DNA from: Prevotella sp.
Lineage (GTDB): Bacteria; Bacteroidota; Bacteroidia; Bacteroidales; Bacteroidaceae
NCBI GenBank assembly: GCA_017651265.1
Contig: JAGCDO010000061.1
Coordinates: forward strand, 1-49,120
Length of the DNA stretch: 49,120 nucleotides
Direction: 5' to 3'
Shown here one piece after another: positions 351 through 25,383 of the stretch (position 1 is the stretch's first letter; every line of letters begins with the position of its first letter). The translations under genes and the position numbers were made by a program. The notes under the pieces were generated by a model. The model did no database searches. It was not told where the DNA came from and worked only from the letters and a program-made list of their open reading frames with translations.

Positions 351-1409
351 TTACAGGATGGGCAGGAGGTACTGCCAGATGATGTCCATGTAGGGCTGGT
401 AGAGTGAGGAGGAGGTGGTGAGCACCAATACGGCATCACGATCGGGGAAGACCATGAAGTACTGGCCTGCGAAGCCATCGGCACGGTAGGCATTGTGACG
501 ACACATCCACATCTGGTAGCCATAGCCCTGCACCCATTCGTTGTTGTTCTTGTTCAGACCGACCTTCTCCAGATCCTCGAAACGTGTGCCTGAGGGGGCT
601 GAGGGTACCTGATAGCTCGACATTTCCTTGAGCCATGCTGCAGGAACGATCTGCTTACCGTTCCACTTGCCTTTCTGCAGGAACAGCTGTCCCATCTTGG
701 CCATATCCTCGGTCTTGAGATATAGGCCCCATCCGCCGCAGTTCACGCCCGTCGGACTCTCATCCCACTGGGGACGACTGATATGCAGGGGCTTGAACAG
801 ACGGGTATCGAGATAGTCGATGAGCTTCTCGCCCGTCACCTTCTGCACGATCTCTGCCAGCATATAGGTGCCCATGGAGTTATACATGTAATATTCGCCG
901 GGCTTGTGTAACACTGGCCATGCCAGGAACGCCTTCGCCCAGTCGGACTGTCCGCGGCGGTTACACTCGGTATCATGACCGCATGTCATGGTGAGCAAGT
1001 CACGAACGGTCATGGCCTTCAGGTTCTCGCTGGGTTGTGCGGGCAGTTTGTCGGGGAAGAACTTCACCACGGGGTCGGAAAGGTTGAGCTTTCCTTCGCT
1101 GATGGCGAGTCCTACGGCCGTTGCAGTGAAGGTCTTGCTTACTGAGTGCATGGCGTGGGGCTTCTCGGCCGACTGTCCGTTGAACCATTTCTCAAACACC
1201 ACCCTGCCGTGCTTCAGGATCATGATGCTGTGAAGGGAGATGGAATCAGGCTTCACCGGTCGTGTCTTCGTGGCGTACTCAAAAGAATCTACTGCCGCCA
1301 CCACCGAGGGTAATGCGGTTGTTCTTTGCAGGTTTACAATCTCTTGTTGCGTCTTGCAGCCTGTTACCAACAGTGTTGCCAGGGCGATGAATGGGATGAT
1401 TTTTTTCAT
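351..1409 (-). CDS. Beta-lactamase-fold serine hydrolase, lipoprotein
   Basis: A 352-residue penicillin-binding-protein/class C beta-lactamase-fold hydrolase (EstB-like family). The N-terminus MKKIIPFIALATLLVTGC is a lipoprotein signal with the lipidated cysteine at residue 18, so the protein is probably anchored in the envelope. The catalytic S-x-x-K motif is SVSK (Ser89, Lys92), and the second motif is YNS near residue 176 in a YMYNSMGTYML context. The C-terminal part has GFAGQYFMVFPD, the usual third-motif region. The reading frame continues upstream to 1589 through repeat DNA, but the lipoprotein signal fixes the start at the ATG at 1409. The transcript probably begins near 1637, giving a long leader of about 230 bases that holds a dispersed hairpin repeat. 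The substrate is unknown; an esterase or D-amino peptidase role is as likely as beta-lactamase. Confidence 0.85.
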   Translation of the reverse strand: MKKIIPFIALATLLVTGCKTQQEIVNLQRTTALPSVVAAVDSFEYATKTRPVKPDSISLHSIMILKHGRVVFEKWFNGQSAEKPHAMHSVSKTFTATAVGLAISEGKLNLSDPVVKFFPDKLPAQPSENLKAMTVRDLLTMTCGHDTECNRRGQSDWAKAFLAWPVLHKPGEYYMYNSMGTYMLAEIVQKVTGEKLIDYLDTRLFKPLHISRPQWDESPTGVNCGGWGLYLKTEDMAKMGQLFLQKGKWNGKQIVPAAWLKEMSSYQVPSAPSGTRFEDLEKVGLNKNNNEWVQGYGYQMWMCRHNAYRADGFAGQYFMVFPDRDAVLVLTTSSSLYQPYMDIIWQYLLPIL

Positions 1410-1412
1410 GAC

Positions 1413-1440
1413 TTTGAACTTTGAACTTTGAACATTGAAC
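1413..1440 (+). repeat. Heptanucleotide tract (TTTGAAC)3 ATTGAAC
   Basis: Three exact TTTGAAC heptads followed by ATTGAAC, whose last unit is also the left edge of the 65-base hairpin repeat. Another TTTGAAC lies at 1518-1524. The tract is directly upstream of the serine hydrolase start. Confidence 0.85.
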
Positions 1441-1498
1441 TTTTGGAGCAGCGAGGGCCATTGTGCTTGCACGCTTGGCCGAGTCGTGACAAAAGTCA
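1434..1498 (+). repeat. Dispersed 65-base hairpin repeat, copy A
   Basis: This 65-base segment matches the reverse complement of 24586-24650 at 54 of 65 positions by eye. Both ends are identical (ATTGAACTTTTGGA at the left, GGCCGAGTCGTGACAAAAGT at the right) while 14 central bases differ. The centre forms a hairpin TGTGC-TT-GCACG enclosed by GGCCA/TGGCC, and the outer CTTTTG pairs with CAAAAG. It lies in the leader of the serine hydrolase gene. Confidence 0.8.
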
Positions 1499-1553
1499 TG
1501 GAACGAAGTGACATAACTTTGAACTTTATGATTACCTTTAAACTTTTGGGGAA

Positions 1554-1581
1554 GCAAGAGGCAAGAGGCAAGATGCAAGAG
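1554..1581 (+). repeat. Heptanucleotide tract (GCAAGAG)4
   Basis: Four consecutive heptads GCAAGAG, GCAAGAG, GCAAGAT and GCAAGAG. The same heptad recurs at 11926-11953 and, inverted, at 12005-12030. Confidence 0.85.
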
Positions 1582-1641
1582 AATACCACTGAGTAAAGTA
1601 TTCATGTATCAAACCACTTGTACTTGAAGCATACCACGTTG

Positions 1642-11884: not shown

Positions 11885-11925
11885 CAAGCTTAACTTTCTC
11901 TTCGTTAGCTTTACCCTGTTTAGAG

Positions 11926-12030
11926 GCAAGAAGCAAGAGGCAAGAAGCAAGAGATATGTAATAAGTCCCAGTGACTATAACCAATGCCTATCTAATAGTG
12001 CTATTCTCTTGCTTCTTGCTTCTTGCTTCC
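11926..12030. repeat. Inverted repeat built from GCAAGAR heptads
   Basis: The left arm (11929-11954) and the right arm (12005-12030) are complementary at 24 of 26 positions, with 50 bases between. The arms consist of heptads GCAAGAA or GCAAGAG (four at 11926-11953). There is no T run, so it is not a classic terminator, although it lies between two convergent genes. Confidence 0.8.
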
Positions 12031-22134: not shown

Positions 22135-24573
22135 CTACCCTATGACCTTGTATTTGGCAAATTTCAACAGCAACTGTTTGGTACCCGCATGACGGAACTG
22201 GACAGTTGCTTTTGTATTCTCACCCGTTCCCTCTACCTTGACAACGGTGCCCACACCAAAGCGCTCATGCTCGATGGTGTTTCCTTCGACAAGCGGTGCC
22301 TTTCCACCTGCGGGAGCAGATGCGCCAGATGATTTACCCACCACATCAGACACCCGTCTGAGATTCCCTCCTGCCGCCGTGAATGTGCGTTTGAAACGAC
22401 TGGAGAACGGATCTGTTGGTGTATCCTCATGGTGACCTGCGATGCGCGGCTTGGGGTCGGCCTTGAACTGGGAAGCCACAGGATTGGCATTCTGCCAGCG
22501 ACGCCCGTCGGAATAGCCACCAAATGGTTTCCTTGAAGGCGCGTCGAACAGTCCGCCACCCACTTCCTCCTCAACCTTCAGGAGGTTAGGATCGATATCG
22601 TATACGAACCTACTGGGTGTGTCAAACTCCATCTTTCCGTAGCGCCAGCGGTTCTTGGCACAGGTAAGGATACAATGTTTCTCGGCACGTGTGATGGCCA
22701 CGTATAGCAACCGCCGCTCCTCTTCCAGCTCACGCTTGGAGGTGGTGCTTAGCGGACTAGGGAAGATGTTCTCTTCCAAGCCCACTACAAAGACTGTAGG
22801 AAACTCCAAACCCTTGGCGCTATGAACGGTCATCAGCGTTACACGCTGCGCATTCCCTGTATCGTCATCACTATCCAGATCGGTCATCAGCGACACCTCC
22901 TGCAGGAAATCCGTCAACGACACCTCCTGCTCCAGTCCTTCCTCCCTACGCCCTTGCACAAAGTCCTGCATACCGCTGAGGAATTCCTCCAGGTTCTCCT
23001 GTCGTGCCAAAGCCTCTGGCGAAGTATCGCCATATAAATCGGCTGAGATCCCGCTGACCTTGATAATCTCCGATCCCAACTCATAAGCATCCGTAGTAGT
23101 CATCTTCTCCATGAAGCTACTGATCATTTCACAGAAATGCTGCAGCTTGGTCTGTGTTCCCTTGTTCACATCCAGCTGGTACTGAACAGGGTGGCATATC
23201 ACGTTCCACAGACTAGTTTGGTTATTCATCGCACACGCAGCAATCTTCCCTACGGTAGTGTCACCGATTCCCCTTGCCGGGTAGTTGATGATACGTTTTA
23301 CCGCCTCCTCGTCATCGGGATTGGCCACCACGCGGAAATAAGCGATGATATCCTTGATCTCCTTGCGCTGGTAGAAACTCAGACCGCCATATATTCTATA
23401 AGGTATATTCTCCTTACGGAACACCTCCTCGAAACTACGACTCTGGGCATTGGTACGATAAAGAATGGCAAAGTCGCTATAGGCCGCCTTCTCCTCGCGT
23501 CTGATGCGCTTGATGTCGTTACATACAATGATCGCCTCCTCCTTGTCGCTGTAGGCAGGCTTGAAGATCAGTCGTTCACCTTGATCGTTCTGACTATACA
23601 CATCCTTGTGTATCTGTCGTTCATTCTTCCTGATCAGACTGTTGGCTGCCTGAACGATATACTGCGTACTGCGATAGTTCTGTTCCAGTTTGAACAGCTT
23701 GGTACCATCGTATATCTGCTGGAAGTCGAGAATATTATCGATGTTCGCGCCGCGGAATCCATAGATGCTTTGTGCATCATCCCCTACCACGCAAACATGC
23801 TGATGCTCACGCGTGAGCTGATAGACGATGCGCTGCTGCACCGAGTTCGTATCCTGATACTCGTCGACCAATACGAAACGGAAACGATCAGCATACTGCT
23901 GTCGCACCTCCTCATGTTCATTGAACAGCGTGTACGTCTGTGTAAGCAGGTCGTCAAAGTCCATGGCGTTCGCCTGTCTGCACCGCGCACAGTAGGCAGA
24001 ATAGATGGCACTGATGGCCGGCATCCTTGCCTCGCGGTCGTGCTCCAACGCATCCTTGTCGTTGGCATAGAGATCGGGCAGTATCAGGTGGTTCTTCGCC
24101 ATGCTGATACGATGGTGAACCGTGGCCGACTTATACACCTTATCATCGAGATTCATCTCTTTGATGATGCTCTTGATAAGCGATCTGCTATCACTCTCAT
24201 CATAAATCGTGAAGTTGGAAGAATAGCCGATGCGCTCAGCCTCCCTTCTCAGGATCCTTGAGAAAATGCTATGGAACGTTCCCATATAGAGATAACGGGC
24301 AGTCTGCTCCCCCACCAGCTGTCCTATACGGTTTCTCATCTCCTTGGCCGCCTTGTTGGTAAATGTCAGCGCCAAGATATTCCATGGCATCATCCCCCGC
24401 TCCAGCAGGTACGCTATCTTGTAGGTCAGCACGCGCGTCTTTCCCGACCCGGCACCGGCAATCACCAGTGACGGACCGTCGATATATTCCACCGCCTTGC
24501 GTTGACTCTCATTCAAGTCACAGGAATCAAGTTTCAAGTTACAAGTATTTTCTGTCAATTTGTCAATTTTCAA
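22135..24573 (-). CDS. pcrA: ATP-dependent DNA helicase PcrA/UvrD
   Basis: A superfamily 1 helicase of about 800 residues for DNA repair and removal of recombination intermediates. Motif I AGAGSGKTR, motif II LVDEYQDTN, QNYRST (motif IV) and TVHSAKGLEF (motif V) are present, and a tudor-like C-terminal region (EHERFGVGTVVKVEG) that binds RNA polymerase in PcrA. The first ATG is absent: the open frame begins as TTA AAA TTG after a stop, and only TTG codons (positions 24573, 24558, 24537, 24516) precede the conserved LNESQRKAV. The true start is one of these. The N-terminal 20 codons fall in repeat-derived DNA. Downstream partner of mtgA, no own promoter seen. Confidence 0.9.
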   Translation of the reverse strand: MKIDKLTENTCNLKLDSCDLNESQRKAVEYIDGPSLVIAGAGSGKTRVLTYKIAYLLERGMMPWNILALTFTNKAAKEMRNRIGQLVGEQTARYLYMGTFHSIFSRILRREAERIGYSSNFTIYDESDSRSLIKSIIKEMNLDDKVYKSATVHHRISMAKNHLILPDLYANDKDALEHDREARMPAISAIYSAYCARCRQANAMDFDDLLTQTYTLFNEHEEVRQQYADRFRFVLVDEYQDTNSVQQRIVYQLTREHQHVCVVGDDAQSIYGFRGANIDNILDFQQIYDGTKLFKLEQNYRSTQYIVQAANSLIRKNERQIHKDVYSQNDQGERLIFKPAYSDKEEAIIVCNDIKRIRREEKAAYSDFAILYRTNAQSRSFEEVFRKENIPYRIYGGLSFYQRKEIKDIIAYFRVVANPDDEEAVKRIINYPARGIGDTTVGKIAACAMNNQTSLWNVICHPVQYQLDVNKGTQTKLQHFCEMISSFMEKMTTTDAYELGSEIIKVSGISADLYGDTSPEALARQENLEEFLSGMQDFVQGRREEGLEQEVSLTDFLQEVSLMTDLDSDDDTGNAQRVTLMTVHSAKGLEFPTVFVVGLEENIFPSPLSTTSKRELEEERRLLYVAITRAEKHCILTCAKNRWRYGKMEFDTPSRFVYDIDPNLLKVEEEVGGGLFDAPSRKPFGGYSDGRRWQNANPVASQFKADPKPRIAGHHEDTPTDPFSSRFKRTFTAAGGNLRRVSDVVGKSSGASAPAGGKAPLVEGNTIEHERFGVGTVVKVEGTGENTKATVQFRHAGTKQLLLKFAKYKVIG

Positions 24574-24585
24574 TTTTAACTACGT

Positions 24586-24650
24586 TGACTTTTGTCACGA
24601 CTCGGCCAATCAAGTAAACTTGTTGGCTCTCGCTGTTCCAAAAGTTCAAT
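24586..24650 (-). repeat. Dispersed 65-base hairpin repeat, copy B
   Basis: Matches copy A (1434-1498) at 54 of 65 positions. Its central stem is CAAGT-TT-ACTTG, base-paired although the sequence differs from copy A. It starts inside the last codons of mtgA (its ATTGA includes the TGA stop) and reaches to within 13 bases of the first possible pcrA start. Heptad-like ATTGACA/TTGAAAC sequences continue into pcrA. Confidence 0.8.
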
Positions 24651-25383
24651 TCTTATAAATTCCTCCATCCACCGTACTCGGATCAACAACCTGCCCTTCC
24701 TTCGGCAGAATCGGTATAAACTTCATCTGTTTCATAATAGCATACTTACGTTTCACCATGTAGTCGGAAGGATACTTCGACGAGTACACCCTGGGATTAG
24801 GCAGGGTGGCCGCTATCAAGGCGCAGTTGGCACGGGTGAGTTCCTTGGCAGAACAGTTGAAATGCTCTTGCGCCACCGCCTCCACACCATAGATGCCATC
24901 CCCCATCTCTATCGAGTTCAGATAGACCTCCATGATGCGCTGCTTACTCCACATCAGTTCGATGAGCACAGTGAAATACGCCTCCAAGCCCTTGCGTACC
25001 CAAGTACGACCCGGCCATAGGAACACGTTCTTGGCGGTCTGCTGACTGATGGTGCTGGCGCCTAACATGCGCTTGCCCGTCTTGTTCCGCTTGGTGGCCT
25101 TCTCGATGGCCTTGTAGTCAAAGCCATGATGCTTCAGGAACCGCTGGTCTTCGCTGGCCATCACCGCCACAGGCATACTGGGTGACATCTTCTCCAACGA
25201 CACCCAGTGGTGCTTGAGTTTCAGGTCCTTCCCCTCCTGATGCTGCTCAGCCAGACGGATGAACATCAGAGGGGTGAAGTACACAGGAACAAACCTAAGC
25301 ACTATTACAGAAAGAATGGTGGAGGCAAAGAATGCCACCACCATCCATTGAATAAGTTTTCTTATACCTTTAATGATCTTCAT
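24646..25383 (-). CDS. mtgA: Monofunctional biosynthetic peptidoglycan transglycosylase
   Basis: A 245-residue GT51 enzyme that polymerises lipid II into glycan strands. One N-terminal membrane helix (about 12-34) anchors it. The donor/acceptor motifs are MASEDQRFLKHHGFD (catalytic Glu near residue 77) and GASTISQQTAKNVFLWPGR, then the RIMEVYLNSIEMGDGIYG motif. Length fits MtgA (about 240). It overlaps the ompA-like gene by one base (TAATG), implying translational coupling. Its TGA stop is within the left edge of the 65-base repeat. Confidence 0.92.
   Translation of the reverse strand: MKIIKGIRKLIQWMVVAFFASTILSVIVLRFVPVYFTPLMFIRLAEQHQEGKDLKLKHHWVSLEKMSPSMPVAVMASEDQRFLKHHGFDYKAIEKATKRNKTGKRMLGASTISQQTAKNVFLWPGRTWVRKGLEAYFTVLIELMWSKQRIMEVYLNSIEMGDGIYGVEAVAQEHFNCSAKELTRANCALIAATLPNPRVYSSKYPSDYMVKRKYAIMKQMKFIPILPKEGQVVDPSTVDGGIYKN

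Follow-up and report, generated by a model that had tools for sequence, protein, structure and literature searches.

The window, a 49,120-nt stretch that makes up contig C60 of a Prevotella draft genome (3.16 Mb in 69 contigs, 94% complete), holds two inverted copies of a short palindromic repeat (Table 1). Copy 1 overlaps a minus-strand ORF with a PF00144 domain. A lipoprotein-like start follows residue 64 of the stop-to-stop version of this ORF, which places copy 1 upstream of the gene and antisense to it. Copy 2 lies on the minus strand like both of its neighbours. Its first base completes the TGA stop codon of the upstream transglycosylase gene, and the listed start of the downstream UvrD-type helicase gene, 24573, is probably too early. 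Intergenic 7-base tandem arrays are found in the window at 1411-1443, 1554-1581, 11922-11953 and 12007-12029, with the units ACTTTGA, GCAAGAG and TCTTGCT.

The initial annotation had placed the two copies correctly; they are 83% complementary over 65 nt (54/65). It described differences confined to a 14-base centre between identical ends. The differences are indeed concentrated there (nine positions), but two fall outside the centre. The centres pair as it proposed, TGTGC with GCACG and CAAGT with ACTTG, with three Watson-Crick exchanges and one change from wobble to Watson-Crick, and the GCCA/TGGC and CTTTTG/CAAAAG stems are present. We revised the ends of the element for both copies. The annotation had missed the 3' mini-hairpin, which is unusually long in copy 1, and the copies that lie in frame within genes.

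Table 1. Coordinates of the repeat copies, their predicted structural parts and the neighbouring features (window positions unless a locus is named).
Feature	Position	Strand	Basis
Copy 1, AA start to end of long 3' mini-hairpin (end approximate)	1438..1514	+	R1 match 1431-1512, alignment A1; end read from sequence
Copy 2, 69 nt (manual count)	24578..24646	-	R1 match 24572-24653, ORF list
P1, outer variable stem, 1439-1445 with 1490-1496	1439..1496	+	pair counts, RNA fold
Two tandem G.A motifs of copy 1, 1446-1447/1488-1489 and 1453-1454/1481-1482	1446..1489	+	RNA-fold register, joint states in 171 copies
Link of the G.A motifs in copy 1, 1448-1452 with 1483-1487, 1455 with 1480, 1456 bulged		+	same register
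P3 (1457-1460 with 1476-1479) and P4 apical hairpin (1462-1466 with 1469-1473), 3'-side bulge	1457..1479	+	pair counts
H2, 3' mini-hairpin, GTCA/TGAC in copy 1, overlapping the P1 foot	1495..1512	+	sequence; H2 covariation on A3
Heptamer array, ACTTTGA x4.7, running into copy 1	1411..1443	+	repeat search
Short AATTGACA-type array, period 8, just 3' of copy 2	24553..24576	-	repeat search
Stop-to-start ORF with PF00144 domain	351..1589	-	ORF list, Pfam; start inferred
Transglycosylase gene, upstream of copy 2	24646..25383	-	ORF list, Pfam
UvrD-type helicase gene, downstream of copy 2	22135..24573	-	ORF list, Pfam
Type B copies	L115:4432-4528, L127:2562-2645, L117:10251-10289, L123:1228-1314, L113:2370-2451

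The genome search suggested by the initial annotation returned far more than two copies, and pairing is kept in them. A 35-base core with at most three mismatches matched the genome of the window 22 times and its reversed control pattern never, well in excess of chance. With the 65-mer, blastn found 28 places (E<1e-5), and a covariance model built from 28 copies (R1) gave 51 matches at E<=1, of which 45 reach E<=1e-4, a sister type among them. Within the genus 109 of 150 genomes matched (E<=0.01), with 1 to at least 30 matches per genome, and some rumen Prevotella genomes carry copies by the dozen. A second model from 118 copies (R2) matched at least 27 of 294 Bacteroidales genomes (E<=0.001), in at least 21 of 178 genera, and in a survey of 296 genomes of the phylum the genome of the window alone; these two surveys used stricter filters and their counts are lower bounds. 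The core pattern was found in at least 115 contig stretches, and the 80 listed are mostly from MAGs of the rumen or of ruminants more widely, assigned to Prevotella and other Bacteroidales. Contigs in IMG/VR contained the core in 32 stretches and gave 46 model matches to both types. Several copies each are found on large contigs filed there as viral, up to 145 kb (L402, L404, L414, L419, L420, L422). Ten proteins of IMG/VR contigs scanned per library gave one weak PHROG match and one Pfam match (DNA methylase). The 65-mer had no match among plasmid and phage records. Rfam gave no match at gathering score in the window, and none at E<=10 for nine loci. The literature we found holds no description of the repeat, although with most subscription journals beyond the reach of the search this supports novelty only weakly. 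The element is apparently an undescribed family of roughly 70-base folded repeats.

Folded singly, the window copies reach z values of -1.28 (DNA) and -1.71 (RNA) for copy 1, and -2.71 (DNA) and -3.26 (RNA) for copy 2. The single-sequence fold of copy 1 is unremarkable, and the structural case rests on the comparison of many copies. Two false pattern matches (L022:1726-1813, L006:2007-2094) were dropped before the first alignment; the 181 rows of alignments A1 to A3 reduce to 163 unique copies, 150 with a recognisable core and 144 with the mini-hairpin. From these sequences we predict a single-strand fold composed of a variable outer stem, two tandem G.A motifs, a variable apical hairpin and the 3' mini-hairpin. 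In A3 (118 rows, 109 distinct) standard pairs occupy 92.9% of 2366 cells, both sides change at 18 of 22 pairs, and 345 double-change cells compare with 81.6 (sd 7.1) in shuffles, counts that lean toward the structure because A3 was fitted to that of R1. When the partner is slid, pairing in A3 falls to 25-40%. The plain MAFFT alignment A1 is 93.2% paired, with 48 double-change cells against 14.1 shuffled. In the mini-hairpin, too, the sequence varies and pairing is maintained (A3). The selection on structure proposed initially is thus supported by strong covariation across many dispersed copies.

The constraint acts on the sense strand, to which the fold belongs: mismatches in the variable stems are G.A in 87 cases and C.T in 3. 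Tandem G.A jointly replaces two adjacent P1 pairs in 32 of the 109 rows, against a mean of 13.7 and a maximum of 23 in shuffles. RNA folding suggested the two tandem G.A motifs in the middle of the element, and 171 copies support this model, with G.A at 9.66 in 159 copies and A.G at 10.65, G.A at 16.59 and A.G at 17.58 in all 171; a further 46 of the 217 distinct rows fall outside the type A expression used for this count. Pair 18-57 is G-C in 163 copies and A-T in 5. This register superseded the first register of P2, on which models R1 and R2 had been built.

Compensatory change, as the initial annotation understood it, stands as far as the strong covariation is concerned, but a stepwise course is not borne out. 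Wobble pairs are scarce (37 cells against 1728 Watson-Crick). A close relative, G094, is 98% identical to the genome of the window over 2.2 kb around copy 2, and at one of eight orthologous pairs between the two genomes the apical hairpin and left arm differ as a block. At the remaining orthologous pairs the element shows nothing more than single changes, of which that in L008 disrupts a base pair. Given the scarce wobble pairs and the one block change, part of the covariation may reflect exchange or arm copying and not stepwise selection, and copy-to-copy exchange or arm copying probably contributes to it. The same two observations would be expected of neutral quasi-palindromes, with arms made by template switching, copies made by recombination in short tandem arrays and no selection on the fold. 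We regard this origin as very unlikely, since template switching gives perfect arms, and not paired G.A/A.G units or mismatches that are kept in 171 of 171 copies.

The unit starts with AA in 141 of 150 copies, and the mini-hairpin is followed by AA in 106 of 144. The commonest length is 69 nt (56/144), followed by 72 nt (18/144), and 93 of the 144 lengths are divisible by 3 (binomial 2e-14 against one third, ignoring relatedness). Copies are found in intergenic heptamer arrays, at stop codons, beside tRNAs and in frame within genes, and some sites are occupied in one genome and empty in its relatives. A peptidase U32 gene is occupied in G094 and empty in the genome of the window (72 nt by manual count, in a short heptamer array). 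In an amidohydrolase gene the element is present in two genomes (69 nt), one of them with two tandem copies, and missing from 28 homologous loci. In an NtrC-type regulator 72 nt lie within the receiver domain in G106 and G032, with G040, G072 and G081 lacking them. G094 shows a bare heptamer array at a fourth, intergenic site where the genome of the window carries the element. Dispersal and presence or absence between close genomes agree with the mobile, REP-like hairpin that was suggested initially, although no insertion was caught in progress. Head-to-tail tandem copies also occur elsewhere (L095:1300-1720, G049:C215:14610-14855, G342:C3:238255-238418), one pair within a gene.

MITEs share their ends with a parent IS and duplicate the target site on insertion. 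At the three in-gene sites no clear duplication goes beyond AA: the U32 and NtrC sites show AA at most, and the amidohydrolase tandem is also compatible with a 6-base repeat, AACGTC. The flanks of copies have a period of 7, and the 7 bases on either side of the unit are alike in 36 of 142 copies, compared with 7.4 in shuffles (maximum 17). The occupied and empty pairs show no 7-bp target duplication, and we therefore read the likeness of the flanks as insertion into pre-existing heptamer arrays. The idea, prompted by L015 and L095, of a left P1 arm copied from the target finds no support at the U32 and NtrC sites. The array association and the tandem copies would also suit the neutral quasi-palindromes discussed above, but two of the three in-gene insertions lie outside arrays.

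Among the 163 unique copies, 22 lie in sense within stop-to-stop ORFs of at least 200 codons. We scanned 25 copy-holding ORFs with Pfam (E<=1e-5); L095, L052, L170, L221 and others lay outside the scan, as did the antisense ORF of L021. Seventeen ORFs were matched, 16 with the copy in sense and one antisense. The latter is the ORF of window copy 1, where the copy precedes the lipoprotein-like start, and the copy in the antisense ORF of L021 likewise precedes such a start. The ORFs without a match comprise five sense (L092, L166, L178, L201, L211) and three antisense cases (L177, L182, L209). The sense bias has a probability of about 2e-5 for 16/17 (hand arithmetic) and of 4e-5 for 15/16; L184 is under Pfam's own cut-off. 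Stop codons do not explain the bias, because antisense frames are no less often open than sense frames (262 and 202 times in 144 copies). In seven of the 16 sense ORFs (L088, L110, L174, L215, L102, L204, L216), and probably in L192, domain sequence flanks the insert on both sides; in the rest the insert lies toward one end, and the true start is uncertain in L105 and L108. Proteins apparently gain peptides of 23-24 residues from the element. The 22 in-ORF sense copies use two reading frames, so no single peptide is favoured.

Between co-directional genes the orientation is biased as well, with 27 sense against 8 antisense copies when both genes are within 150 bases (p 0.002) and a weak bias of 38 against 22 over all distances (p 0.05), in counts that use genes called by a simple ORF rule and leave out 22 edge copies. 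In another genus, three genomes carry the element immediately 5' of a tRNA-Gly gene and oriented with it (L358:1501-1586, L364:1501-1596, L368:1501-1586), two of them with a further tRNA-Gly gene on its other side; the mini-hairpins of these copies differ and their pairing is kept. The excess of sense copies in genes and operons suggests that transcripts carry the fold too, as RNA. The element might instead be a cis-acting regulatory or processing RNA, such as a leader, spacer or terminator-like stem-loop, that is functional and not selfish. The strand-specific fold, the operon bias and the copies beside tRNA-Gly genes would fit, but we consider such a role unlikely in view of the in-frame copies within many unrelated genes, the common divergent and convergent gene contexts (19 and 15), the presence or absence between close genomes, the patchy range and the absence of an Rfam family.

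A link to a TnpA-REP type transposase, proposed by the initial annotation, found no support: the genome of the window has no Y1 transposase match at E<=0.001, although in a 94% complete draft such a gene may have been missed. A REP of the classical kind, moved by a Y1 tyrosine transposase (the RAYT/REPtron system), would likewise be a small multi-copy palindrome, often just past stop codons, sometimes in genes and without target duplication, and Y1 genes are present in 87 of 150 genomes of the genus. The element-rich genomes G049 and G018 have a Y1 match, but the element-rich G094, G063, G032 and G047 have none. Of 20 stretches around Y1 genes two had an R1 match (E<1e-4), 2-3 kb from the gene, and these two had been chosen for a known nearby element. 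Other palindromes stand beside the gene in three of the five Y1 regions searched for repeats, and the A3 columns contain no conserved GTAG tag. A classical REP is improbable, and on the evidence gathered the element does not count as a RAYT-linked REP, a verdict kept provisional by the draft state of the genome. Some Y1 genes of the genus have palindromes of their own, of a GGGGACGG type (L306:6074-6253, L312:1379-3870, L311:2396-3398), in what looks like a separate REP/RAYT system.

The same genome contains a sister repeat of similar build, type B (GATTAAGYGAG...CGAGCGTGAG). Its shorter signature, AAGYGAG...CGAGCGTGAG, accounts for 18 of the 217 rows and has the second G.A motif in common with type A. 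Four type A copies apparently occupy apical loops of type B hairpins (L119:4930-5016, L113:5993-6079, L118:791-877, L121:2338-2424). The reverse strand of type B resembles a Bacteroidetes promoter, TTTG, about 20 bases and TACCTTTG.

Several known systems invite comparison. Integron attC sites have RYYYAAC/GTTRRRY ends and belong to cassette arrays with an integron integrase. In cyanobacteria, small dispersed repeats form hairpins within 7-base tandem arrays, as our element does in heptamer arrays, but they are shorter and belong to another phylum. Rickettsia palindromic elements (RPE) reportedly go back to Ogata in 2000 and 2002. RPE are palindromic and dispersed, between genes and in frame in unrelated genes (PMC10969869, PMC3733652), about 150 bp long and in ten families of Rickettsia (PMC10969869). 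Our element likewise is a dispersed palindrome with copies in intergenic positions and, in frame, in unrelated protein genes, and no enzyme is known for either. It differs in being about 69-75 nt long, in its tandem G.A motifs and mini-hairpin and in being found only in Bacteroidales among the genomes searched. GTAG- and CGTC-tagged REPs are described in PMC3733652 as small palindromes of 20-40 bp, often downstream of genes and some inside them. The CGTC type has one 8-9 bp stem, a CGTC tag and a CCA-like tail, lacks a dedicated transposase and is reported from Bacteroidetes among five phyla (PMC3733652). Our element is also a small palindrome often after genes and sometimes within them, but it is longer and has G.A motifs in its interior, an outer stem and one more hairpin; its unit length and A3 columns depart from the CGTC REPs, as defined in that source, in size, stem and tag. 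It behaves like RPE, with a smaller and different build, and we place it with the coding-compatible mobile palindromes.

Our favoured reading, held with somewhat better than even confidence, is a mobile palindromic repeat that is non-autonomous, belongs to Bacteroidales and reaches its highest abundance in rumen Prevotella; an enzyme would be supplied in trans. The two tandem G.A motifs would let this enzyme recognise the single strand in its folded form and insert a copy. The stems would be free to change so long as pairing persists, and unit lengths divisible by 3 together with open frames would let in-gene insertions survive. The fold in transcript RNA might either select the orientation or take part in the spread. 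A bolder and highly doubtful version is that the element spreads as RNA, the folded RNA being inserted into mRNAs or tRNA precursors before AA and the product returning to the genome. Such a route would account for the preferred sense orientation, both in genes and among tRNAs, for a fold specific to one strand, and for the missing clear target duplication and recognised DNA transposase. If true, the element would be a selfish RNA, retained in mature mRNA and translated with it.

In-frame selfish repeats in protein genes have already been reported for Rickettsia and for scattered REPs (PMC3733652, PMC10969869). As a mobile repeat, the element described here would be selfish DNA of an uncommon sort, tolerated inside proteins. 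It can mislead the annotation of genes and RNAs in rumen metagenomes. Since the family is plentiful in an order of bacteria common in the gut, close genomes differ in its presence and relatives offer empty sites, its ends, frame rules, orientation and enzyme become testable.
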